A stretch of 64,000 nt of DNA from positions 62,001 to 126,000 of the forward strand of contig NZ_NRTA01000003.1 of assembly GCF_002286735.1 (NCBI RefSeq), read 5' to 3'. Source of the DNA: Leptolyngbya sp. BC1307 (lineage in GTDB: Bacteria > Cyanobacteriota > Cyanobacteriia > Phormidesmidales > Phormidesmidaceae). Positions 52,236-64,000 of this stretch are shown here, piece after piece (position 1 is the first letter of the stretch; each line of letters begins with the position of its first letter). The notes beneath the pieces were generated by a model. That model was not told the DNA's origin. It saw only the letters and a list, made by a program, of their open reading frames with translations, and did not search any database. The position numbers and the translations under genes are program-made.

Positions 52236-53072
52236 GTGGTTTCTGTTGAGAAAGACATCAGTGTTGAGAGCTTGCTGAACCAGCCAGCGGTTACAGTTAC
52301 AAACTTAAGCAAGAGTTTCAAGGGTATTCCGGCTTTGCAGCAGGTGGATTTTGCCGTTCGAAACGGTGAAATGGTGGCGCTAGTAGGCGCTTCAGGTTCT
52401 GGCAAATCGACGCTGCTAAGAACAATCAACGGCCTGCAAATGGCCGATAGCGGCACGGTCAAGATTTTTGATACACCGCTACAGAGTGACAGCAAGCTGC
52501 ATTCTAAAGCTCGCCAACTGCGCGCTCAAGTCGGCTTTATCTTTCAGCAGTTTAATCTGGTCAGCCGCCTCAGCGTTTTAGAGAATGTGCTGATTGGCAA
52601 CTTGTCACGAACACCGTCTGTCCGCTCGGCCTTTCGCCTGTTTACTCAGGCGGAAAAAACGCGAGCGTTAGCAGCGCTAGACCGGGTAGGCATTTTGGGT
52701 CAAGCCTACAAGCGGGCGGCGTTGCTCTCAGGCGGGCAGCAGCAAAGGGTAGCGATCGCTCGCTGCCTGATGCAGGGAGCCCAAATCATATTGGCGGACG
52801 AACCGATTGCTTCGCTTGACCCTGAATCGGCCCGGCGCGTGATGGAACTGCTGGTAGATCTCAATCGCGATCAGGGCCTCACGGTCATCACCTCACTGCA
52901 TCAGGTGCAGATGGTGCGATTTTACTGCGATCGCTCCATCGCCCTACGAGACGGCACGGTGCAGTTTGACGGGGAGACCACAGCGCTTGGCGATGAGCAG
53001 CTTAGCAATATCTACGGGGCCGCTGCCGAAGAGCTGGTACAGCGGGGCCATGCAGAGATGCTAACCGGTTAA
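52236..53072 (+). CDS. phnC: phosphonate ABC transporter ATP-binding protein
   Basis: The ATPase of a phosphonate/phosphite importer. It has 278 residues with Walker A GASGSGKS, signature LSGGQQQR and Walker B IILADEPIASLDP followed by the switch HQVQ. Its order phnC-phnD-phnE is the standard one. The start is uncertain: GTG at 52236 keeps about 22 residues before the conserved TVTNLSKSF. A Pho box lies just upstream. Confidence 0.95.
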   Translation: MVSVEKDISVESLLNQPAVTVTNLSKSFKGIPALQQVDFAVRNGEMVALVGASGSGKSTLLRTINGLQMADSGTVKIFDTPLQSDSKLHSKARQLRAQVGFIFQQFNLVSRLSVLENVLIGNLSRTPSVRSAFRLFTQAEKTRALAALDRVGILGQAYKRAALLSGGQQQRVAIARCLMQGAQIILADEPIASLDPESARRVMELLVDLNRDQGLTVITSLHQVQMVRFYCDRSIALRDGTVQFDGETTALGDEQLSNIYGAAAEELVQRGHAEMLTG

Positions 53073-53151
53073 ACCAAAGGGCCGATCCCAGTTTTCGGGT
53101 GGCGATCGCCCGCCTTAACGTTGTTCACTTTCATGCCCTCAGGAGTCTTCA

Positions 53152-54213
53152 ATGCTACCAAGATCGTTTAACCAATCCGCGAAAAAATGGACCTCTTTAC
53201 TGATGGTGACGCTATTGAGCGGCGCTGTCTTAAGCAGTTGCAGTGGCAGCGCTGAGCCAGAAGCTGATGTAGCCACGGACACTACTGGTGAAGCCCAAGC
53301 CTGTGCTCCCGAGCTAACCGAGCTAGACTTTGGCATTATCTCCACCGAGTCGCAAGACAACCAAAAGCCCAAGTGGGAGCCGTTCATCGCCGCCATGTCT
53401 GAAGCGTTGGGCCGCGACGTAATAGCCTCCTATGCAACAGACTACGCGGGCGTCATTGAAGCGATGGGCGCAGGCAAAGTGCAGATGGCCTGGTTCGGCG
53501 GCAAGTCTTATATCGAAGCGGCTGAGCGCTCTGATGCCGAAGCCTTTGCTCAAACGGTCAACAGCGATGGCACAAAGGGCTACTACGCTTATCTCATCAC
53601 CAACAAAGACAATCCTATCGTGGCGGATATTGATGTTGAAGCGGGCAATGGCGATCAATATGTAGTAGATAACGCCGCCAACCTTACCTTTGCCTTTAAC
53701 GATCCCAACTCTACCTCGGGTTTCCTGGTGCCTAGCTACTACGTCTTTGCGAAAAACGACGTTGACCCTGATCAGGCGTTTAAGGAACTCATCTTTGCAG
53801 GCAGTCATGAGGCAACAGCCCTGGCGGTTGCTAACAATCAGGTAGACGTAGCCACCAACAACAGTGAATCTCTCGTTGAGGTCGAGAAAAATGATCCGGC
53901 AGCCTTTGAGAACATTCAGGTAATTTGGACATCACCTGAGATTCCCAGTGATCCGATCGCCTATCGCAAGGATCTGCCAGACTGCCTGAAGAGCAATATT
54001 CAAGAGTTTTTCTATAGTTACGACGACGAGGCTATTTTGGGGCCTTTGGAGTGGGAGGGATTTGACGAAGCCGACGACAGTACCTGGAATACGGTGCGCG
54101 AACTGGAGATCGGCAAGAGCATTCTCGAAGTGCAGAACGACGCTAGCCTGGACGACGCGGCTAAGCAGCAGCAGCTAGACGAGCTAAATAAAGAGCTAGA
54201 AGCGGTGCAGTAA
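53152..54213 (+). CDS. phnD: phosphonate ABC transporter substrate-binding lipoprotein
   Basis: The periplasmic binding protein, 353 residues. It has a lipoprotein signal peptide with lipobox LSSC (Cys30), followed by an acidic Ala/Glu/Thr linker. Typical PhnD elements are LDFGIISTESQDN, YAGVIEAMGAGKVQMAWFGGKSYIEA and FNDPNSTSGFLVPSYY, which line the phosphonate pocket. The C-terminal 40 residues form a charged helix. An intrinsic terminator follows before phnE, consistent with needing more PhnD than permease. Confidence 0.95.
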   Translation: MLPRSFNQSAKKWTSLLMVTLLSGAVLSSCSGSAEPEADVATDTTGEAQACAPELTELDFGIISTESQDNQKPKWEPFIAAMSEALGRDVIASYATDYAGVIEAMGAGKVQMAWFGGKSYIEAAERSDAEAFAQTVNSDGTKGYYAYLITNKDNPIVADIDVEAGNGDQYVVDNAANLTFAFNDPNSTSGFLVPSYYVFAKNDVDPDQAFKELIFAGSHEATALAVANNQVDVATNNSESLVEVEKNDPAAFENIQVIWTSPEIPSDPIAYRKDLPDCLKSNIQEFFYSYDDEAILGPLEWEGFDEADDSTWNTVRELEIGKSILEVQNDASLDDAAKQQQLDELNKELEAVQ

Positions 54214-54250
54214 GCAAGGTCGTCAGTCTAGCAAAAGTGCTCATGGTACA

Positions 54251-54300
54251 TCAGGCGGTTTAGGCGATGGTTAACGGCAACCGCCTGATTTTTCTTTTTA
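54251..54300 (+). terminator. intrinsic terminator between phnD and phnE
   Basis: TCAGGCGGTT (54251-54260) pairs perfectly with AACCGCCTGA (54279-54288) around 18 nt, followed by TTTTTCTTTTT (54289-54299). It lies 38 bp after the phnD stop and 17 bp before the phnE start. Partial read-through would set the phnD:phnE ratio. Confidence 0.88.
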
Positions 54301-54316
54301 CGGGCGAACGGTAGTT

Positions 54317-55150
54317 ATGTCTCTTAAGTCAGAGAAGTATGCGCTTCCGGTTTCTCCGGCAGTGGTGGAGATGCAGGCCCGCGATCGCCTTACACCCCGA
54401 CAGATGGTGCGATGGGCTGCATTTGGGTTGGGGGCGATCGCCCTCCTCTACTACTCGGCTGTCGTCAGTGAAATCGACCTGGTTGAGCTAGCCGAAGGTG
54501 GCAGCACTATGGGCGAATACATCAGCCGCTATTTCCCGCCCAATTTTTCTGACTGGTCTTTTTACCTGACAGACATTATTGAAACAATTGGCATGGGCAT
54601 TTGGGGCACGCTGCTCGCGGTTGTCGTGGCTGCGCCGCTCTCAATTTTGGCCTCGGCTAACCTGTGCCCGATATGGATTGTGCAGCCGACTCGTCGCCTC
54701 TTAGATGCCATGCGGGCGATTAATGAGATTGTATTTGCGCTGGTGTTTGTCGTCGCCGTTGGGCTGGGACCGTTTGCGGGAGTGTTAGCTATCTTCGTCC
54801 ATACAGCGGGCATCTTGGGCAAGCTCTTTTCTGAAGCGATTGAAAATATTGAGGTTGGCCCGATTGAGGGCGTGCGGTCAACCGGTGCGAGTAAGTTTCA
54901 AGAGATTTTATTTGGGGTGATTCCGCAGGTAATTCCGCTCTGGATCTCTTACATCCTCTACCGCTTTGAATCCAACGTGCGCTCGGCGACCGTGCTGGGA
55001 ATTGTGGGCGCGGGCGGCATTGGGGTCTCTCTCTATCAAAGCTTTCGCTCGTTTGACTACACCAAAGTCTGCGCTATTTTGATCATTTTAGTAGTGGTCG
55101 TGGGCGTTATTGATGCTGCTTCGGCCTGGTTACGCCGTCGGTTTGTCTAG
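54317..55150 (+). CDS. phnE: phosphonate ABC transporter permease
   Basis: The inner-membrane permease, 277 residues with about six helices. The EAA-type coupling loop is visible as SEAIENIEVGPIEGVRSTGASKFQEIL near 174-200. The N-terminal 40 residues are polar. Only one permease gene is present, where some phn operons carry two. The stop overlaps the convergent phnF gene by 21 bp. Confidence 0.95.
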   Translation: MSLKSEKYALPVSPAVVEMQARDRLTPRQMVRWAAFGLGAIALLYYSAVVSEIDLVELAEGGSTMGEYISRYFPPNFSDWSFYLTDIIETIGMGIWGTLLAVVVAAPLSILASANLCPIWIVQPTRRLLDAMRAINEIVFALVFVVAVGLGPFAGVLAIFVHTAGILGKLFSEAIENIEVGPIEGVRSTGASKFQEILFGVIPQVIPLWISYILYRFESNVRSATVLGIVGAGGIGVSLYQSFRSFDYTKVCAILIILVVVVGVIDAASAWLRRRFV

Positions 55151-55885
55151 GCTGTCGGTTTCATTGTCAAAGACTAGCTCCATGCGATCGCCTCTCAATC
55201 GCGCCACTCCATACTCGATCAATCGCCCCTGCTGATCGGCATTGATCGACTCTGCTAGCAAAATCGGCTGGTTCAAAGGGAGCTGCAATAGCTTGGCATC
55301 TCGCGGCTGTACCAAACGAGCCGATACGGATGTGCGGCAGCGGATGTGATCGACACTGTAGCGATCGCTTAACCACTGTGAGATTGAGCCTGTTTTTTCA
55401 AAGGCCGCTAAGCTCTCATCAGTGAGCAGATCGGGGAATAGCGCCAGCGGGAAGTAGCCGCTACCGACGCTAATGGGTTCGCCATCAGCCATACCGAGCC
55501 GCTCAATTAGCGCTACTGGGTCTCCAGGGGCAATCGCCAACCCTGCTGCGACCGCTGTCTCAGCCGGTATCTCTAAAGCCCTCAGCAGCGTGAACTTCGC
55601 CGTGCGTCCTTGAGCCTTGAGCGCTTCGCTATAGCGAACCCGTTGACCGATAGCATAGCGAATCGGCGCGGCGACAAAGGTACCGCGCCCGCGTTCGGCC
55701 CGCAGCAGACCTTCTTGTTTGAGTAGAGCGATCGCCTGTCTGAGCGTATGCCGATTAACATCAAACTGCTGCGATAGCTGAGATTCGGGCGGTAGTTTGT
55801 TACCAACCGGATACACCTGCGACTGAATGCTATGGCGGAGCTGATTGGCAATTTGAATGTAGAGAGGCGCAGCAGCGTTGCTCAT
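55130..55885 (-). CDS. phnF: GntR/UTRA-family transcriptional regulator of the phn genes
   Basis: A 251-residue HutC-subfamily regulator: a winged helix-turn-helix (about 6-75; PLYIQIANQLRHSI, then KLPPESQLSQQFDVNRHTLRQAI and GRGTFVA) and a UTRA effector domain (about 95-245). It is transcribed toward phnE and away from phnG, so it sits between the two arms of the island. The 98 bp gap to phnG contains an operator matching the HutC-type consensus. It is expected to repress phnG and itself, with a phosphonate or pathway intermediate as effector; the ligand is not known. Confidence 0.92.
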   Translation of the reverse strand: MSNAAAPLYIQIANQLRHSIQSQVYPVGNKLPPESQLSQQFDVNRHTLRQAIALLKQEGLLRAERGRGTFVAAPIRYAIGQRVRYSEALKAQGRTAKFTLLRALEIPAETAVAAGLAIAPGDPVALIERLGMADGEPISVGSGYFPLALFPDLLTDESLAAFEKTGSISQWLSDRYSVDHIRCRTSVSARLVQPRDAKLLQLPLNQPILLAESINADQQGRLIEYGVARLRGDRMELVFDNETDSLDKPTA

Positions 55886-55929
55886 AGCGGCAGATGGAAA
55901 AGATATTTCACTAATGTATTCAAAAACAC

Positions 55930-55958
55930 TTGCAAGTTTTAGAGACGTATTTCATAAT
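55930..55958 (+). promoter_or_regulatory. promoter of the phnG operon
   Basis: TTGCAA (55930-55935) and CATAAT (55953-55958) are spaced exactly 17 bp apart, predicting a start site near 55965. This is the best sigma-70 promoter seen in the window. Confidence 0.75.
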
Positions 55959-55960
55959 TT

Positions 55961-55976
55961 GTCTAGACATCTAGAT
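55961..55976. promoter_or_regulatory. paired PhnF-type operator
   Basis: Two adjacent 8-bp palindromes: GTCTAGAC (55961-55968) fits the HutC/GntR consensus GTnTAnAC perfectly, and ATCTAGAT (55969-55976) is a close variant. They cover the predicted transcription start of the phnG operon, so bound repressor would block initiation. Confidence 0.75.
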
Positions 55977-56022
55977 TATTGCATTGATCGGTCAAGCAAA
56001 TTTTAGTAGCAGGGTTAGCTTT

Positions 56023-56469
56023 GTGGAAGACAGGGCCGAACGGCAAGCCTGGATGGGGATACTGGCCAAGGCTGAGCTGGCGGCGTTGGAAGGCTGTGTG
56101 GCTCGGTTGGGAGATTTGCCAGGGTATGTTTTTTTGCGATCGCCTGAAATCGGTCTGGCGATGGTGCGCGGCAGGGCAGGCGGCGTAGGCGATGCGTTCA
56201 ATTTGGGGGAGATGACGCTGACGCGCTGTGTGGTGCGGTTGGAGGAGGCAGGAACTGCGGGATTTGGATATGTGAGGGGGCGATCGCACCGGCACGCTGA
56301 ATTAGCCGCGCTCTGTGATGCGCTTTTGCAATATGAGCAATGGTATAGCCGGGTAATGAAAGCAGTGATTGAACCCTTGCAGCGCAGGCTGCAACAGTCG
56401 GTAGAACACCAGCAGCGACAGACAGCAGCCACTCAGGTCGAATTCTTTACGATGCTCAGAGGAGAATAG
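56023..56469 (+). CDS. phnG: C-P lyase subunit PhnG
   Basis: A subunit of the PhnGHIJ core that transfers the phosphonate to the 1' position of ATP ribose. It is about 148 residues from the GTG at 56023; the core starts at RQAWMGILAKAEL. A TTG at 55984 would add 13 residues but would leave only about 20 nt of leader. The AREP-like segment reads YVFLRSPEIGLAMVRGRAGG, and the C-terminal half fits the PhnG pattern. First gene of an operon of eight. Confidence 0.9.
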   Translation: MEDRAERQAWMGILAKAELAALEGCVARLGDLPGYVFLRSPEIGLAMVRGRAGGVGDAFNLGEMTLTRCVVRLEEAGTAGFGYVRGRSHRHAELAALCDALLQYEQWYSRVMKAVIEPLQRRLQQSVEHQQRQTAATQVEFFTMLRGE

Positions 56470-56479
56470 GAGAGGAGTG

Positions 56480-57061
56480 ATGGTAACGACAACATTGCCG
56501 GGGTTGGGTGATCCGGTGCATGACGCTCAGCGGACGTTTCGAGCACTGTTGGAAGCGATCGCGCATCCTGGTCAGCTTTACACGCCCGAAGTGAATCTCT
56601 CCTCGCCCACTGGCCTCATGCCCATCTGCGCGGCGGCTTGTCTGACTCTTTTAGATCTTGAAACGACTGTTTGGCTACAGCCCAGTCTGCCAGCAGGCAT
56701 TAAAGACTGGCTGCGTTTCCACACCGGCTGTCAATTTACTGAAAGCTCAAAAGCGGCAGATTTTGCAATTATTGGCGATGCCTGCTTGCAACCTGAGCTA
56801 AAGGCGTTCAACTGGGGCAGCGCTGAAGATCCTGAACAGTCCACGACTTTACTCATGCAGGTTGAAGACTTCGCTTCGGGTACCGCTCAACAGCTCAGTG
56901 GCGCAGGCATTTTAGACAGTGTTTCTTTTGCGCCTAAGTTACCAGAGGCTTTTTGGAAACAGCGGCTTCAAGACGCTTACCCGCAGGGAATTGACTGTTT
57001 TTTGTTTACACAGCGATCGGTGGTGGGATTGCCTAGAACCGTTCGCGCCAGAGCCATATAG
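56480..57061 (+). CDS. phnH: C-P lyase subunit PhnH
   Basis: A core C-P lyase subunit, 193 residues, related to PLP-transferase folds without the cofactor. The N-terminal DPVHDAQRTFRALLEAIAHPGQ and the C-terminal GVDC-like GIDCFLFT and GLPRTVR match the family. The ATG at 56480 follows AGGAG; a GTG directly before it is the alternative start. It is 10 bp from phnG. Confidence 0.94.
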   Translation: MVTTTLPGLGDPVHDAQRTFRALLEAIAHPGQLYTPEVNLSSPTGLMPICAAACLTLLDLETTVWLQPSLPAGIKDWLRFHTGCQFTESSKAADFAIIGDACLQPELKAFNWGSAEDPEQSTTLLMQVEDFASGTAQQLSGAGILDSVSFAPKLPEAFWKQRLQDAYPQGIDCFLFTQRSVVGLPRTVRARAI

Positions 57062-57072
57062 TAACCAAACAA

Positions 57073-58233
57073 ATGTCCTACGTATCCGTCAAAGGTGGCG
57101 AAAAGGCCATCCAGAACGCAGAAGCACTCCTCACCGCCCGGCGGCGCGGCAGTCCTGAGGTGCCTGAGCTGAGCATTGAGCAGATCAAGCAGCAGATGGC
57201 GCTTGCCGTAGACCGGGTAATGTGCGAAGGCAGTCTTTATGATCCGGATCTGGCGGCACTGGCTATCAAGCAATCTTGGGGCGATCTGGTCGAAGCGGTC
57301 TTTCTCTTGCGGGCCTATCGCACCACGCTGCCCCGGCTGTACTACACCCAGCCGTTGAATACCGATCAAATGGCCATTCAACGGCGGATCTCTTCTATTT
57401 TTAAAGATGTCCCTGGCGGGCAGCGGCTCGGCCCTACCTTCGACTATGTTCACCGACTGCTAGATTTTAAGCTGGCCGCCGAAGATAATCGGCCCGCCAT
57501 GCCGCAGGGTGAAGCCAGCCATGTGGAGACGCCCAGAGCCTTAGATGCCCTGGGACATGAGGGGTTGATTCAGCCCGAAGAGAAGACAGTCGCCGCCACA
57601 CCGTTTGACTTGACCCGAAAACCCTTGAATTTGCCTGCTGACAGAGACGCTCGATTACAGAACCTGGCTCGCGCAGACGAAGGATTTTTGCTGAGCATGG
57701 CCTACTCTACTCAGCGCGGCTATGGCAACAGCCATCCGTTTGCCGGAGAGATTCGCATGGGTGAAGTGGAGGTGGTAATTTGCCCAGAAGAGTTGGGATT
57801 TGAAGTGGCTATCGGTCAAATTCCGGTGACTGAAGTGCAAATGGTGAATCAGTTTCAGGGCAGTAAAAAGCTTGCGCCTCAGTTTACTCGGGGCTATGGC
57901 CTGACGTTTGGCTACAACGAGCGCAAGGCGATGTCTATGGCAATTGTCGATAGGGCGCTGCGGGCAAAAGAATTTGGCGAGGAGATTAAAGGGCCAGCCC
58001 AACAGGAAGAGTTTGTGCTCGCTCACAGTGACAACGTGGAAGCGCAGGGGTTCGTACAGCACTTGAAGCTACCGCACTACATCGACTTTCAGGCAGAGCT
58101 AAATCTGGTGCGAAAGATGCGAGCAGAGTACGAACAGGAACATGCAGCCAAATGCTCTAAACCTCAACCAGATAGAGCGAATCAGGCCAGCGTTCCGAAT
58201 GATGCCGCCATACAGCCCTCACTCATTTCTTGA
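57073..58233 (+). CDS. phnI: C-P lyase subunit PhnI
   Basis: The nucleosidase subunit of the C-P lyase core, 386 residues; with PhnG, H and L it forms the ribose-triphosphonate from ATP. It begins with MSYVSVKGGEKAI and contains EVPELSIEQIKQQM, the FDYVHRLLDFKL stretch and the SMAYSTQRGYGNSHPF segment typical of the family. It starts 11 bp after phnH and ends 10 bp before phnJ. The C-terminal 20 residues are variable. Confidence 0.96.
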   Translation: MSYVSVKGGEKAIQNAEALLTARRRGSPEVPELSIEQIKQQMALAVDRVMCEGSLYDPDLAALAIKQSWGDLVEAVFLLRAYRTTLPRLYYTQPLNTDQMAIQRRISSIFKDVPGGQRLGPTFDYVHRLLDFKLAAEDNRPAMPQGEASHVETPRALDALGHEGLIQPEEKTVAATPFDLTRKPLNLPADRDARLQNLARADEGFLLSMAYSTQRGYGNSHPFAGEIRMGEVEVVICPEELGFEVAIGQIPVTEVQMVNQFQGSKKLAPQFTRGYGLTFGYNERKAMSMAIVDRALRAKEFGEEIKGPAQQEEFVLAHSDNVEAQGFVQHLKLPHYIDFQAELNLVRKMRAEYEQEHAAKCSKPQPDRANQASVPNDAAIQPSLIS

Positions 58234-58243
58234 GAGGAACAGA

Positions 58244-59116
58244 ATGAAAAGTACTGAACCTGGTTTCAACTTTGCCTACCTCGACGAACAAACCAAGCGC
58301 TCTATCCGCCGAAGCCTGCTCAAAGCTGTCGCGATCCCCGGCCATCAAATTCCGTTTAGCTCGCGCGAGATGCCCATGTCCTACGGCTGGGGCACAGGCG
58401 GTATTCAGCTGACCGCTTCTATCATCGGCGCGGATGATACGCTCAAGGTGATTGATCAAGGGGCGGATGATACGACGAATGCAGTCAACATTCGGCGATT
58501 TTTCAAAAAAGTTTGCGGCATAAAGACAACAGAACAAACAACAGCGGCGACAATTATTCAAACCCGCCATCGCATTCCCGAAACACCTCTGCAAGTCGGG
58601 CAAACAATGGTGTATCAGGTGCCGATTCCTGAACCGCTGCGGTGGATTGAGCCTTCAGAAGTAGAGACCCGGAAAATGCACGCGCTCTCTGAATATGGGG
58701 CGATGTACGTGCGGCTGTACGAAGACATTACCCGCTACGGACATATCGCCACCGCCTACGACTATCCGGTGATGGTAGATGGCCGCTACATGATGCGCCC
58801 GAGCCCCATTCCCCGATTCGACAATCCCAAGCTCGATATGAGTTCGGCCCTACAGCTCTTTGGCGCGGGGCGAGAGAAACGCCTATATGCGGTGCCGCCC
58901 TATACGTCGGTGAAGAGTCTCGATTTTGAGGATCATCCTTTCACAGTAGAGCGGTGGGATAAGCCTTGTGAATTTTGCGGGGCGACCGATAGCTATCTTG
59001 ATGAGGTGGTGACAGATAACGAGGGCGGGCGGCTGTGGATTTGTTCGGACACAGATTATTGTACTCAGCGGCAGGAAAGTCAAAAGTCAGGAGGTGAAAA
59101 TGCAGTCTTTGCTTGA
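58244..59116 (+). CDS. phnJ: C-P lyase catalytic subunit PhnJ
   Basis: The radical-SAM subunit that breaks the C-P bond of ribose-1-phosphonate-5-phosphate, releasing the alkane. From ATG 58244 it has 290 residues. The four cysteines are spaced CxxC-x21-C-x5-C (Cys242, 245, 267, 273), the same spacing as in E. coli PhnJ, and the radical glycine lies in YGWGTGGIQ near 50. The frame is open 34 codons upstream inside phnI, but the family N-terminus is TEPGFNFAYLDEQTKR. It overlaps phnK by 17 bp. Confidence 0.97.
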   Translation: MKSTEPGFNFAYLDEQTKRSIRRSLLKAVAIPGHQIPFSSREMPMSYGWGTGGIQLTASIIGADDTLKVIDQGADDTTNAVNIRRFFKKVCGIKTTEQTTAATIIQTRHRIPETPLQVGQTMVYQVPIPEPLRWIEPSEVETRKMHALSEYGAMYVRLYEDITRYGHIATAYDYPVMVDGRYMMRPSPIPRFDNPKLDMSSALQLFGAGREKRLYAVPPYTSVKSLDFEDHPFTVERWDKPCEFCGATDSYLDEVVTDNEGGRLWICSDTDYCTQRQESQKSGGENAVFA

Positions 59117-59870
59117 TGTTTGTAACCTGAGTAAGGCTTATGGAGCGGTGCGGGCTTGCGATCGCATCTCCTTCTCTCTCTACCCCGGCCAAATTCTCGG
59201 CATCATCGGTGAATCAGGGTCGGGAAAGACGACGTTGTTGAATGCGATTGCCCACCAACTCCCTTTCGACAGCGGCCAGATACTGTATCGCAGCGCCACA
59301 AATGAAACGCTAGATGTCAGCCAGCTTAGCGAATCTGATCGGCGGCAGCTAATGCGTAGTGAATGGGGCTTTGTCCGGCAGCACGCCCGCGATGGGCTGC
59401 GGATGAAAGTGACTGCCGGGGCCAATATTGGCGAGCGTTTGATGGATATTGGTGAGCGACACTACGGCAACATTCGCACTGAAGCGAGCCGGTGGCTTGA
59501 CCAGGTGGAAATTTCATCTGCTCGCATGGATGACCTGCCCGGCACCTTTTCGGGCGGGATGCAGCAGCGGCTCCAGCTTGCCCGCGTACTGGTTACCCGG
59601 CCCCGACTTGTCCTGATGGATGAACCAACCGGAGGATTGGATGTCTCAGTCCAGGCAAAGCTGTTGGACTTGATGCGGCAGCTGGTGCGAACCCTTGACC
59701 TTAGCGTTATTTTGGTTACTCACGATATTGGCGTCGTGCGGCTGCTAGCGCACAGACTGATTGTGATGCGCCATGGCCAGATCGTCGAAGCAGGGCTGAC
59801 CGATCAGGTGTTAGACGATCCGCACCATCCCTACACGCAAGAGCTAATTAGCGCCACGTTAGTTCCTTAA
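59100..59870 (+). CDS. phnK: C-P lyase ABC-type ATPase PhnK
   Basis: An ABC-family ATPase that docks on the PhnGHIJ core and is needed for turnover rather than transport. It has 256 residues, Walker A GESGSGKT, signature FSGGMQQR, Walker B LVLMDEPTGGLD and an NHxx-like C-terminal half, with the PYTQELI C-terminus of the family. The ATG at 59100 has AGGAGG 5 bp upstream; a GTG inside that site is not a plausible start. Confidence 0.95.
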   Translation: MQSLLDVCNLSKAYGAVRACDRISFSLYPGQILGIIGESGSGKTTLLNAIAHQLPFDSGQILYRSATNETLDVSQLSESDRRQLMRSEWGFVRQHARDGLRMKVTAGANIGERLMDIGERHYGNIRTEASRWLDQVEISSARMDDLPGTFSGGMQQRLQLARVLVTRPRLVLMDEPTGGLDVSVQAKLLDLMRQLVRTLDLSVILVTHDIGVVRLLAHRLIVMRHGQIVEAGLTDQVLDDPHHPYTQELISATLVP

Positions 59871-59887
59871 ATCAAACAGAAAAGCCT

Positions 59888-60643
59888 ATGCAAACGCTCC
59901 AAACTCACGCTCGCCAGAACGGGTCTGCGCAAAGATCTGTCGCTGATCTGCCGGAAACGGCCCTGCTGCAAGCCAATCAGCTCTACAAAGGATTCACTCT
60001 TCACAACCAGGGTGGTATTCACTTTCCGGTGTTGCGGGACGTTTCGCTGACGGTCAATCCGGGCGAATGTGTGGCGCTTGTTGGCGCGTCGGGCTCGGGC
60101 AAAAGTACCTTTATGCGATCGCTCTACGCCAACTACCGCACCGACAGCGGCGAAATTTGGATAAAACATCGGGGCCAATGGCAAGACTTAGCCGCCTGCG
60201 AACCTCATGCGATTATGAGCATTCGTCGGCACACCCTGGGCTACATCAGCCAGTTTTTGCGGGTGATTCCTCGGGTATCAGCCTTAGAAGTTGCTGCCGA
60301 ACCCCTGATGGAGCTAGGGGTGGAGCCTGAGGCCGCTAAAGACAAGGTGCGATCGCTCTTTACCCGGCTGAATTTACCTGAGCGACTTTGGTCACTTTCG
60401 CCCACGACCTTTTCCGGTGGTGAAAAGCAGCGGGTCAATATCGCCAGGGCATTTGCCGTAGACTATCCCGTTTTACTGCTAGACGAACCGACTTCGGCCT
60501 TAGACACCGCTAATCAGGAAGTTGTTATCCATCTGATAGAAGAGAGAAAGGCTGAGGGCGGTGCGCTCATCGGCATTTTTCATGATGATGACGTGAGGAA
60601 TCGCGTTTGCAACCGTTTCTTAACCTTTAGGCCCCATGATTGA
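59888..60643 (+). CDS. phnL: C-P lyase ABC-type ATPase PhnL
   Basis: The second ABC-family ATPase of the pathway, 251 residues, with GASGSGKS, FSGGEKQR and LLLDEPTSALD. A non-conserved leader of about 30 residues precedes the core ALLQANQLYKGF. With PhnG, H and I it is required for the phosphonate-ribosylation step. It is 17 bp after phnK, followed by a 60 bp gap to phnM. Confidence 0.95.
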   Translation: MQTLQTHARQNGSAQRSVADLPETALLQANQLYKGFTLHNQGGIHFPVLRDVSLTVNPGECVALVGASGSGKSTFMRSLYANYRTDSGEIWIKHRGQWQDLAACEPHAIMSIRRHTLGYISQFLRVIPRVSALEVAAEPLMELGVEPEAAKDKVRSLFTRLNLPERLWSLSPTTFSGGEKQRVNIARAFAVDYPVLLLDEPTSALDTANQEVVIHLIEERKAEGGALIGIFHDDDVRNRVCNRFLTFRPHD

Positions 60644-60703
60644 AACTTCTTATTTTTACTATGAATAACTCTTCAGAAAATCATTCGCCAAGCGACCCAG
60701 ACT

Positions 60704-61873
60704 ATGAAAGAACAGATCTATACGAACTATCGGCTACAGCTTCCGACCGAAGAAATTATCGGCACGCTCGTCGTAAAAGACGGCGTAATTGCCGATATTC
60801 AGTCGGGGAACGTCGAGCACGGGCAGAATGGCAAGGGTCAGTATCTTCTACCCGGCCTGATTGAGCTACATACGGACAATCTGGAGCGCTGTATCTCACC
60901 TCGGCCCGGTATTCGCTGGCCCTTAGCAGCAGCGGTCACCTATCATGACCGCGATTTGGCCGCCGCTGGGATTACGACGGTTTGCGATGCGATCGCCATT
61001 GGCGATGTCACCCCTGCCGAGTCGCTGCGCAAGACCAACTATGGTCCGATGATTCAAGCCGTCCATGACCGTCAGCAGGCAGGCAATTTACTGGTGGATC
61101 ATCGCCTGCATCTGCGCTGCGAGCTAGGCTACGAATCGGTTCCTGAAATCATCAGCCACTACGTGAATCATCCAGATCTCGCCCTGATTTCGCTGATGGA
61201 TCATACGCCGGGGCAGCGGCAATTTGCCAAGCTTGACAAGTTTCGCGAATATTACATGGGCAAGCATGGCATCACCGAAGCCGAACTCGATGAGTTCATT
61301 CGCGGGAGAATTGAGGCTCAAAAAGAACATGCCATCAACAACCGCAAAGCTCTAGTAGACATGGCAGCTACTCATAATCTTTCTATGGCCAGTCATGACG
61401 ATGCCACGGTTGAGCACGTACAGCAAGCAGTCGAAGAAGGGGCTAATATCTCCGAATTTCCGACCACGCTCACCGCTGCAAAAGCGGCCAAAGAGAACGG
61501 ATTGCAGGTACTGATGGGCGCACCTAACCTGGTTTTAGGCGGTTCTCACTCTGGCAATGTCTCGGCAATGGAACTGGTCAAGCTCGATCTGGTCGATTTG
61601 ATTTCGTCGGACTACGTGCCTCACAGTTTGTTGCAGTCAATTTTTGTGATGGCCGCGGTAACGGGTAAGCCGGTGTATGAAACGATGAAGCCAGTGACGA
61701 TCAATGGCGCGATCGCCATTCAATTAGAGGGCGATCGCGGCAGCTTGGAAATCGGCAAACGCGCCGATCTCCTCACCGTCTGCTACGACATAGACAAAGC
61801 TTCCAAGAGCGACTCAGGCAGCTCAGTTCCTCAGCTCACTCAGGTCATTCGAGGAGGTCGCCGTGTTGCCTGA
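60704..61873 (+). CDS. phnM: alpha-D-ribose 1-methylphosphonate 5-triphosphate diphosphatase
   Basis: An amidohydrolase-fold enzyme that removes pyrophosphate from the ribosyl-triphosphonate before PhnJ acts. It has 389 residues with the metal motif LIELHTDNLERC near 50, LISLMDHTPGQRQF and MASHDDATVEHV for the other ligands, and VLGGSHSGNVSA near the end. The final codons overlap the HD gene by 11 bp. Confidence 0.95.
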   Translation: MKEQIYTNYRLQLPTEEIIGTLVVKDGVIADIQSGNVEHGQNGKGQYLLPGLIELHTDNLERCISPRPGIRWPLAAAVTYHDRDLAAAGITTVCDAIAIGDVTPAESLRKTNYGPMIQAVHDRQQAGNLLVDHRLHLRCELGYESVPEIISHYVNHPDLALISLMDHTPGQRQFAKLDKFREYYMGKHGITEAELDEFIRGRIEAQKEHAINNRKALVDMAATHNLSMASHDDATVEHVQQAVEEGANISEFPTTLTAAKAAKENGLQVLMGAPNLVLGGSHSGNVSAMELVKLDLVDLISSDYVPHSLLQSIFVMAAVTGKPVYETMKPVTINGAIAIQLEGDRGSLEIGKRADLLTVCYDIDKASKSDSGSSVPQLTQVIRGGRRVA

Positions 61874-62417
61874 CGCTGCTGCTAAAATCGCGCCGATCAT
61901 TGAGTGCTTCACCATTCGAGGCAGCGAGCAATACGGTCGTGAAGCCGTCACCCAACTGCAACACGCTCTCCAGTGTGCCACCTGGGCCGAAGCTGCCCGC
62001 CAACCGCCGGCACTCATCGCCGCCTGCCTGCTTCACGATGTAGGTCATTTGCTCCATAACCTCGGTGAAGATGCTGCTGAACGCGGACTTGATGACCGCC
62101 ACGAATATCGCGCCATTCCCTTCCTGAGCCAGCACTTTCCGCCTGCGGTCACCGAGCCCATTCGCCTGCATGTCAACGCCAAACGCTATCTCTGCGCTAC
62201 CCAAGCAGATTACTGGGCCGACCTCTCACCTGCTTCCAGACTCAGCCTGGAGCTACAGGGCGGTATCTTCTCAGAAGCAGAAGCGATGGATTTTATTGCG
62301 CAGCCTCACGCCAAAGACGCTGTCCAACTGCGCATTTGGGATGATCTGGCCAAAGCCCCGCACCACAAAACTCCGAATCTGGCCCATTTTTTACCCATAC
62401 TCACTTCAGCCTTGTAA
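61863..62417 (+). CDS. PhnZ-like HD-domain oxygenase (phosphonate-operon type)
   Basis: A 184-residue HD protein of the phosphonate-associated family that includes PhnZ, a mixed-valence di-iron oxygenase cleaving 1-hydroxy-phosphonates to Pi. Metal ligands are His34, His58-Asp59, His80, His103 and Asp160/161. The PhnZ-type substrate residues Tyr24 and Glu27, which distinguish oxygenases from HD phosphohydrolases, are both present. The start is GTG 61863 with GGAGG upstream, overlapping phnM by 11 bp, so it is part of the C-P lyase operon. No PhnY hydroxylase is in the island; the substrate may be taken up already hydroxylated, or the protein may have another role. Confidence 0.85.
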   Translation: MLPDAAAKIAPIIECFTIRGSEQYGREAVTQLQHALQCATWAEAARQPPALIAACLLHDVGHLLHNLGEDAAERGLDDRHEYRAIPFLSQHFPPAVTEPIRLHVNAKRYLCATQADYWADLSPASRLSLELQGGIFSEAEAMDFIAQPHAKDAVQLRIWDDLAKAPHHKTPNLAHFLPILTSAL

Positions 62418-64000
62418 AACTTGATTACCTGTCTGACGCTGTACCAAAGCAATCGTCATATCTACTGCTGCTGATGATGGGGCATCCACTTCGCCGTACT
62501 GAGCATTGTCTTGTAAAAATAGGTGGAGTGACTGGGCTTTAGGCTCTGTAGATAGTTTGCCAGGTAGAACAACAGCAGCGATGCCGCCAGGCTGGAGCAA
62601 ATTAAAGCACTGCTCTATGAAGAGGCGATCGCACGAAAACTGGTTGCGAACGGGTTTGCCATGAGCTAACGGGTTTTGATGCGTATACTGCTCGCTGCGG
62701 TAGAAGTAGTCAGCCACATAAGCATACTGATTTTGATAAAACAGCCACGCCTGAGTGACTTCGGGATCGCCTTTAGCCAGCGCCTGCTTTGAGGTTTTAA
62801 GTGAGTGGACACTCACACCTTTCGCCTCGGAAAGATCTTGAAACCGCTGAAAAAACTCTTCAGCCGTCGGCTTAAAAGTCCCCCACGGCGGCGCACAGAC
62901 AATCGCATCAAACCCACCCTGCCGGATAATCTTGTTGAAATGGTAGCCCCAGTGAAAGGGCTGCAAAATATCGATATCTTCGGAGGTCAGGGGGCGGCGC
63001 TGAGGTTTGTCAGTGAGCTGCGCGGCCTTGTACTGAATGCCTAGCTGCTGGCTCATGTGGTTTAGCAGCAGCGCGTCTAGCTTATTTTGAGCTTTGATGT
63101 CTAGCCGTAAGATATCTTCTCTTAATAGGGCAGCTCTGGCGTAAGGCGGAATGTTTTTAGCGGCTGCTAGCAGCTGATTGCGAGACTTATAGTGCTCTAG
63201 AGCCAGGTTCTTCTCTGCCAGGGTAGTTTGGTAGCTGTCGGCAACGAGCGGCTGTAGCAGGTTGCCCTGTAAGACGCTATCCTTGCCAGCGCTGATCTGG
63301 TCAAATCGAGCTTCATCCACGGTGAGCAATCCGATTAGCGCATTACCCGACATGACGTTAAAGGTCAGATCGGTTAAAGGCTCTAGCTCTGATGGATGCT
63401 GAGCGATCGCGACAGTATGCAGCCATAGCTGAAAATGAGCAGTCTCAGTCGCACCGGCTCTCAGCTCAACGCCATAGAGATTGTTTTTAAGAATTCGCTT
63501 TTGAATCGTGTGCAACAGATTAGGACGGGCTGATTTTTGTTCTATCAGGCCAGTGCGCCAGAGCTTTAGCTGCGGATCTGGCGTCTGCTGAATATGACCG
63601 ATGAGAATACTAAAAATCTCCGTCAGCCGCTGATGGATCGCAACCAACAAATTGCCGCTGCCACAGGCCGGGTCGAGCAGTCGCAGGTCAGGCAAAATCT
63701 CTTGAATCAGAGGGCGGCACAGCTGAGAGTCAGCATTGAACAGGCGGTCGTTGAGGGTAGTATCAGCGGCGGTTGGGGTTGGCATAACCTGATCGAGCCG
63801 GTCTAGTAGCAGCCGGTCTAGCGTGCGATCGCTCAATTCTCTAGCCAGTGCTGGCGTCCCAACATATCCGACCGGCTGCGTTTGCTCGGCCCAATAGCGC
63901 TCTAGCCAGTAGCCCAGCTCGCCGCTCATCCAGGGGTTCAGCGCATCGACGCTAGCCTGTTCACTCAGCCAGCCCAAAACCGCTTCAAAGGGCGGGTTGC
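62406..64000 (-). CDS. N6-DNA methyltransferase-like protein, partial and probably 3'-truncated
   Basis: The frame is open to the right edge, so the N-terminus lies outside the window. At least 530 residues. Motif I is intact as DPACGSGNLL (about 100 residues in from the edge). Motif IV, normally NPPW/Y, reads CAPPWG: the catalytic Asn is Ala. The family context (YVGTPALARELSDRTLDRL, then FKPTAEEFF after motif IV) suggests a type IIG/Eco57I-like enzyme. The protein stops about 150 residues after motif IV, with no visible target-recognition domain, and its stop overlaps the HD gene by 12 bp. It is probably catalytically dead. Confidence 0.75.
   Translation of the reverse strand, partial: NPPFEAVLGWLSEQASVDALNPWMSGELGYWLERYWAEQTQPVGYVGTPALARELSDRTLDRLLLDRLDQVMPTPTAADTTLNDRLFNADSQLCRPLIQEILPDLRLLDPACGSGNLLVAIHQRLTEIFSILIGHIQQTPDPQLKLWRTGLIEQKSARPNLLHTIQKRILKNNLYGVELRAGATETAHFQLWLHTVAIAQHPSELEPLTDLTFNVMSGNALIGLLTVDEARFDQISAGKDSVLQGNLLQPLVADSYQTTLAEKNLALEHYKSRNQLLAAAKNIPPYARAALLREDILRLDIKAQNKLDALLLNHMSQQLGIQYKAAQLTDKPQRRPLTSEDIDILQPFHWGYHFNKIIRQGGFDAIVCAPPWGTFKPTAEEFFQRFQDLSEAKGVSVHSLKTSKQALAKGDPEVTQAWLFYQNQYAYVADYFYRSEQYTHQNPLAHGKPVRNQFSCDRLFIEQCFNLLQPGGIAAVVLPGKLSTEPKAQSLHLFLQDNAQYGEVDAPSSAAVDMTIALVQRQTGNQVLQG

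Follow-up and report, generated by a model that had tools for sequence, protein, structure and literature searches.

The window analysed here, 64,000 nucleotides from the genome of the cyanobacterium Leptolyngbya sp. BC1307, carries a phosphonate locus at positions 52236-62417 that comprises phnC, phnD and phnE, phnF on the opposite strand, phnG to phnM and, at its end, a gene for an HD-domain protein. This HD gene (61863..62417, + strand, GTG start, 184 amino acids) belongs to the Phn-HD oxygenase family (TIGR03276). Judged from sequence and a structural model, its product is very probably an oxygenase of 1-hydroxyphosphonates. It is also likely, though with less assurance, that it is a diiron enzyme which cleaves such compounds when they arrive ready-made and is accessory to the carbon-phosphorus (C-P) lyase operon. 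The probable main substrate is (R)-1-hydroxy-2-aminoethylphosphonate (R-HAEP). In the proposed reaction, the mixed-valent diiron centre would use O2 to split the C-P bond of the 1-hydroxyphosphonate, presumably taken up by PhnCDE, yielding phosphate and a carboxylic acid (glycine from R-HAEP). The enzyme would broaden the set of compounds open to the operon, or dispose of a hydroxylated aminophosphonate that is a poor substrate for C-P lyase, a role like that of the lyase PbfA in phosphonatase clusters.

Family, fold and active site of the HD protein

With 236.3 bits, the HD protein exceeds the cut-off of 214.6 set for TIGR03276 ('phosphonate degradation HD-domain oxygenase'). It fails the models for TmpB (NF049941, 164.3 bits) and PhnZ1 (NF052439, 135.3 bits), both of which need 300 bits, and falls below the cut-off of the Pfam HD model. 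Among solved relatives, phmmer retrieved TmpB (2.3e-33) and PhnZ (~1e-23), with E values of at least 0.11 for the ten remaining rows. An AlphaFold2 model built from eight sequences (mean pLDDT 87.3, with residues 67-72 below 50) matched TmpB with a Z score of 24.1 and PhnZ with Z scores of 22.8-23.9, TmpB and R-HAEP-bound PhnZ (4mln, 23.9) being tied as best fold matches. Next among the 50 entries listed is MIOX, a third oxygenase of the PhnZ/TmpB kind, with a Z score of 10.8, followed by the others at 8.9 or less. With Foldseek, ten TmpB/PhnZ chains reached E values of 7.1e-9 or lower, all else staying at 0.1 or higher. Nearest among the HD proteins found is one from Phormidesmis sp. RL_2_1 (Leptolyngbyaceae), at 78% identity. 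Compared over 183 codons with the closest relative found (locus L002; loci and genomes are given here by L and G numbers), the gene differs 36, 22 and 109 times at codon positions 1, 2 and 3, a pattern expected under purifying selection.

An alignment of 53 homologues with PhnZ and TmpB brings the six metal ligands (H34, H58, D59, H80, H103 and D160) into register with those of both solved enzymes. All 25 rows linked to C-P lyase genes (24 distinct proteins, as L003 and L120 are identical) retain these six together with Y24, E27, H62, K107, Q132 and R157. In PhnZ structures, the last four hold the substrate. The possibility that Tyr24 and Glu27 are not conserved in the clade of the protein, raised in the original prediction, was tested on the same alignment and does not hold, both being kept in the linked rows (25/25) as well as in the unlinked cyanobacterial ones (8/8). 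Glu27 is also kept in 6/7 rows linked to phnX or phnWAY genes, with His in the seventh (L062). The numbers of the two residues equal those given for PhnZ in PMC8177086 (papers are cited here by accession, from excerpts of their text), in agreement with the earlier claim of six ligands and Tyr24/Glu27 at PhnZ numbering. In PhnZ, Tyr24 ligates Fe2 until the substrate binds and Glu27 pairs with the substrate amino group (PMC8177086). The HD ligand motif, according to PMC11203657, is not fully reliable as a marker. Membership of the oxygenase subgroup, as originally predicted, holds because the family cut-off, the fold, the ligands and the YxxE loop all agree. The name 'PhnZ-type' stands only as Phn-HD oxygenase (TIGR03276): strictly speaking, the protein is no PhnZ, having failed the TmpB and PhnZ1 cut-offs and occupying a branch separate from those of PhnZ and TmpB.

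HD proteins are frequently phosphodiesterases (PMC8177086), and the gene stands at the operon end, where E. coli carries phnN, phnO and phnP. Moreover, no PhnN or PhnP scored above cut-off in the window genome, despite phnG-M. The protein might thus be a phosphohydrolase, either standing in for PhnP, the cyclic phosphodiesterase, or acting in another late C-P lyase step. However, PhnP was above cut-off in 0/14 cyanobacterial genomes searched, 12 of which have PhnJ (six with the HD gene, six without), whereas one control genome scored above it. As PhnP stays below cut-off in PhnJ genomes with and without the HD gene, HD presence does not track its absence, and since it lies below cut-off in all PhnJ cyanobacteria searched, late C-P lyase steps may use other enzymes. 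In addition, YxxE and the oxygenase-type residues are invariant (25/25), and the fold is far nearer to PhnZ and TmpB than to hydrolases. Replacement of PhnP was rejected on the occurrence pattern and the fold, leaving a hydrolase role of this kind extremely improbable.

Gene neighbourhoods and occurrence

In the tree, the window protein belongs to a clade of 40 rows (support 98/88) that extends beyond C-P lyase operons. Members also stand beside phnA and a phosphonoacetaldehyde dehydrogenase gene (L006, L007, L008 and L072) or have phnX-type and TIGR03364 oxidoreductase genes as neighbours (L034, L062 and L064). L178, outside the tree, has phnA and phosphonoacetaldehyde dehydrogenase neighbours as well. 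HD proteins adjoining PhyH (six rows) form a separate clade (99/96), as do those adjoining TauD (three rows) together with TmpB (98/97). Several long branches drew program warnings, some of them under starred branches, and the PhnZ branch is very long and of unsure placement. The tree leaves out L035 (contig end), L070 (very long branch) and the plasmid loci L176-L181; L166 (G440), with BLAST identities equal to those of L002, was unused, and L023 is a fragment. L072 was counted as 'other' in alignment and tree, although its neighbours proved to be phnA and the aldehyde dehydrogenase gene.

Neighbourhoods were also taken from 18 of 27 plasmid records and all seven genome-contig loci. The 18 plasmid records comprise three with C-P lyase (H1, H7 and H8, the latter two with the same HD protein accession), two with phnX and TIGR03364, two with phnA and the aldehyde dehydrogenase, one with a permease and a PhnM paralogue, two with PhyH, four with TauD and four in which no phosphonate gene was recognised (H3, H16, H26 and H27). 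Among the seven contig loci, C-P lyase and phnA plus aldehyde dehydrogenase genes were each found three times, and no phosphonate gene was recognised in the remaining one.

In 23/25 C-P-lyase-linked loci, no other recognised gene separates the HD gene from a preceding phnM or phnM paralogue. Its place varies among these loci: it may follow a terminal phnM or phnM2, or stand between phnM2 and either phnJ or phnG. The two exceptions are L032, where it follows a GNAT gene, and L063 (Variovorax), where it follows phnE. A second phnM is often found immediately 5' of the HD gene (L061 8770-9978, L005, L030, L031, L033, L109, L126, L153, L154 and L160-L163), and belongs to the PRK15446.2-3 subfamily where scanned. 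Such an order would suit an enzyme that works with PhnM as part of the C-P lyase pathway and bypasses PhnJ, with the help of O2, on ribosyl 1-hydroxyphosphonates made by PhnM. The phnM-HD pair is kept even where phnCDE-phnM-HD is separate from phnJ (G387 and G389), and a V. paradoxus plasmid carries the HD gene with a permease gene and a phnM paralogue nearby (L065 9324-10496), no phnJ being annotated in the 14.6 kb shown. If true, this would give an O2-producing cell an oxidative exit beside the radical enzyme PhnJ. However, the known enzymes of the group use free 1-hydroxyphosphonates, the clade also occurs in clusters without PhnM in the stretch taken, the order has its two exceptions, and much of the adjacency is explained by shared ancestry. 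Cleavage linked to PhnM is therefore regarded as highly unlikely.

In a sample of 386 genomes from the phylum, 13 match TIGR03276 at 1e-20, seven of them above cut-off, and 12 have PhnJ, which is present in 6/7 genomes with an above-cut-off HD protein versus 6/379 others. The seventh, G193, lacks PhnJ and shows phnX-type neighbours. Below the cut-off are five small genomes (1.6-2.6 Mb, probably picocyanobacteria), in which PhyH adjoins the HD gene, and G111, with phnX-type neighbours. The window's order (63 genomes) gave a comparable picture: the HD gene occurs in 23 genomes, PhnJ in 24, both in 20 and neither in 36, so that PhnJ is found in 20/23 HD-bearing versus 4/40 HD-less genomes. Fisher's test returned p ~1e-9 for each of the two tables, with relatedness not corrected. 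At least one phn gene lies beside the HD gene in 17 of the 20 genomes with both; G391 and G393 (2.1 kb contig) have none there, and G438 has only a 122-residue phnM-like fragment.

Eight cyanobacterial rows in all have no intact phn gene adjoining the HD gene, some of them on short contigs. Around the unlinked HD genes of G391, G394 and G438, no phosphonate family was recognised among the ten neighbours scanned. G438 has two HD copies (L168 and L169), both off the contig with the phn operon; one of them adjoins a gene for an ACR3 arsenite transporter, with the phnM-like fragment 2.5 kb away. In G394, which lacks PhnJ, a GCV_T (aminomethyltransferase-type) gene comes after the HD gene (L167 5391-6449); glycine would be the product if the HD protein acts on R-HAEP.

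Conversely, four genomes of the order have PhnJ without the HD gene (G436, G439, G421 and G445). G436 and G439 carry phnC-M and G445 phnF-M in the stretch taken. No HD gene was found in the stretches of these four genomes, that of G421 lying at a contig end and the contig of G436 ending 457 bases past phnM. C-P lyase gene sets thus exist without the HD gene in close relatives. The suggestion that the protein serves C-P lyase in some other way is weakened accordingly, because the operons of near relatives do without it.

Origin and nature of the substrate

No hydroxylase gene is present in the window operon. In the whole genome (4.92 Mb, 222 contigs, 99.99% complete), searches with PF05721, PF02668, NCBIfam models and BLAST gave no recognisable PhnY, and PF02668 gave no TauD protein. 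The absence of PhnY noted in the original prediction is thus true of the operon and, by family searches, of the genome. What PF05721 did retrieve are two tandem PhyH proteins on contig C48 (L009 1438-3166), 42% identical to each other. They could be taken as a sign that the HD protein completes a PhnY/PhnZ pathway whose hydroxylase is encoded elsewhere in the genome. However, both match the ectoine hydroxylase model weakly, one also matching a chlorinating-enzyme model weakly, and neither matches a PhnY model or the methylphosphonate hydroxylase model NF052437. The PhyH protein adjoining an HD gene in Rhodococcus, which itself scores 257.8 bits against NF052437 (cut-off 500), is 22% identical to one of the pair by BLAST and leaves the other unmatched, compared with 40-44% identity to three HD-linked cyanobacterial PhyH proteins. 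Furthermore, among five HD-bearing relatives with C-P lyase, G042 has neither PhyH nor TauD, G170 has no PhyH and one TauD, G051 has PhyH and no TauD, and G233 and G338 have both. The HD gene therefore persists where searches found no hydroxylase of these two families, as G042 illustrates. A PhnY elsewhere in the genome, one of the options offered earlier, found no support in the searches named and is very unlikely.

The option of ready-made hydroxyphosphonates is favoured instead, because the same clade accompanies three C-P cleavage pathways. A substrate that comes from outside and is unusable by the host pathways best explains one enzyme type on C-P lyase, phosphonoacetate hydrolase and phosphonatase clusters alike. 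According to PMC8154272, the PhnW-PhnX pair does not handle R-HAEP properly and racemic HAEP inhibits E. coli. The same paper reports PhnZ homologues in 15 of 1,186 phnWX clusters and 24 of 75 phnWAY clusters, never together with PbfA. As sources of HAEP, Acanthamoeba and Bdellovibrio are named there, and S-HAEP figures in Streptomyces biosynthesis (PMC12366243). In lichen Nostoc, clusters for phosphonate biosynthesis include a 2-oxoglutarate oxygenase, HAEP being among the abbreviations of the paper concerned (PMC5987646).

The active site also bears on the nature of the substrate. The six HD proteins with a PhyH partner (L036-L040 and L067) have a Tyr loop one residue shorter, and the Glu27 column holds Glu in 3/6 and Pro in 3/6. 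The shorter loop and loss of Glu could possibly mark methylphosphonate-type substrates. Against this shortened loop with Glu in half of the proteins, the retention of Glu27 in the window's clade, save for L062, indicates an amino-bearing substrate.

The same oxygenase might act on another 1-hydroxyphosphonate, ready-made or locally made, such as hydroxymethylphosphonate or 1,2-dihydroxyalkylphosphonates. C-P lyase operons have a broad substrate range, and PhnZ of G. maris cleaves both R-HAEP and hydroxymethylphosphonate (PMC10574752). Related operons (on Nostoc plasmid L061, in G338 and in G278) also contain a gene for a FosA-type fosfomycin glutathione transferase, from which it follows that they meet unusual phosphonates. 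Where located, this gene lies in the C-P lyase operon between phnI and the phnM paralogue (L061 8351-8773 on Nostoc plasmid pNsp_b, L031 11502-11987 and, as a fragment, L054 7857-8123). The window operon, by contrast, is without it, and the HD proteins paired with PhyH form another clade with a shortened Tyr loop, one of these PhyH partners being the Rhodococcus protein with its score of 257.8 bits, short of the cut-off, against the methylphosphonate hydroxylase model. Moreover, the phnWAY and phnX company of the window's clade points to aminoethylphosphonate-type compounds. Another substrate is thus considered rather unlikely, although it is the most probable of the alternatives.

Several observations weigh against R-HAEP cleavage as an accessory to C-P lyase. 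Glu27 is also present in TmpB and so is no specific mark of R-HAEP, and within the window's own clade L062 has His in its place. The turnover of HAEP by G. maris PhnZ and TmpB is called inefficient in PMC11203657, and no statement that C-P lyase fails on R-HAEP was found in the excerpts of the literature searched. The two PhyH proteins on C48 might be unusual hydroxylases. Some starred tree branches join long branches. Finally, PhnJ is missing from three of the order's 23 genomes with the HD gene (G390, G394 and G426), and the HD gene is not beside intact phn genes in G391, G390, G394, G438, G426 and Elainella (L004).

The operon and known systems

The HD gene begins inside phnM (60704..61873, +; TIGR02318, 454.6 bits, cut-off 390.55), as originally described, with an 11-base overlap up to the phnM stop at 61873. 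A likely ribosome-binding site, GAGGAGG (61851..61857, +), lies within phnM, 5 bases ahead of the GTG. Given this overlap, the HD gene is probably co-transcribed with the phn genes. Its 3' end is overlapped by a convergent methyltransferase ORF (62406-63998), which makes it the last gene of the run. Its position at the end of a C-P lyase operon was borne out by family searches, which identified phnC-M upstream. On the + strand, these are phnC (52236..53072, transporter ATPase, TIGR02315), phnD (53152..54213, substrate-binding protein, TIGR03431), phnE (54317..55150, permease, TIGR01097), phnG (55984..56469, TIGR03293), phnH (56477..57061, TIGR03292), phnK (59094..59870, TIGR02323) and phnL (59888..60643, TIGR02324), all above cut-off. 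The GntR-type regulator phnF (55130..55885, - strand), divergent from phnG, also scores above cut-off (TIGR02325). In between lie phnI (57073..58233, +), with 58% identity to E. coli PhnI, and phnJ (58142..59116, +), encoding the radical C-P lyase subunit (PF06007), which gave no match to a PhnI and a PhnJ model of NCBIfam, respectively. The annotated phnJ start (58142) overlaps phnI by 92 bases and gives 324 amino acids versus 281 in E. coli; it may be too early, a start ~100 bases downstream fitting better by eye. A regular expression for tandem Pho boxes found no match over the window, a result given no weight here.

RefSeq already names such an HD gene in C-P lyase operons of Nostoc and Variovorax, and PhnZ homologues in phnWX and phnWAY clusters have been published (PMC8154272). 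No account of Phn-HD in C-P lyase operons was found in the literature, although older PhnZ/TmpB papers and a 2012 survey may mention it, and PMC11203657 was the only paper on TIGR03276/PhnHD among the literature searched. The window gene thus adds to a known family in a setting that appears undescribed in print. If the proposal is true, an additional, oxidative route of C-P cleavage is frequent in the C-P lyase operons of a whole cyanobacterial order and of some others. The cells would then draw phosphorus from hydroxylated aminophosphonates as a genuine source in their habitats, though the abundance of these compounds is hardly known. The R-HAEP reading also offers the Phn-HD family a specific and cheap assay. 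For metagenomes, caution is advised, since phnZ homologues would not all be part of a PhnY/PhnZ pathway.

Among known systems, PhnHD of Achromobacter belongs to the same family (TIGR03276) as the window protein. According to PMC11203657, it adjoins phosphonatase operons, HAEP was proposed as its substrate by modelling with caution urged, and the pathway seems redundant there; in pseudomonads, such HD proteins occur with PhnW and PhnX and without PhnY*. The setting differs, with phnX beside the Achromobacter gene and a cyanobacterial C-P lyase operon around the window gene. PhnZ, the R-HAEP dioxygenase (4mln and 4n71), shares the fold (Z 22.8-23.9), the ligands, Tyr24/Glu27, H62, K107, Q132 and R157 with the window protein. 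However, it is 31-33% identical, sits on another, very long tree branch and works after PhnY*, which family searches did not find in the window genome. TmpB (6npa), the nearest solved sequence, likewise shares fold (Z 24.1) and YxxE, but it is 38% identical and works after TmpA, its closest rows adjoining TauD-type genes. The PhnZ1-type hydroxymethylphosphonate dioxygenase and PhnYZ of small-genome cyanobacteria are of the same HD oxygenase group; unlike the window protein, the HD proteins of the small-genome loci have an adjoining PhyH partner (5/5) and a loop one residue shorter. In its proposed role, the window protein resembles PbfA, the R-HAEP ammonia-lyase of phnWX and phnWAY clusters (PMC8154272), as an extra enzyme that opens R-HAEP to the host, although PbfA is of another enzyme class and acts independently of O2.

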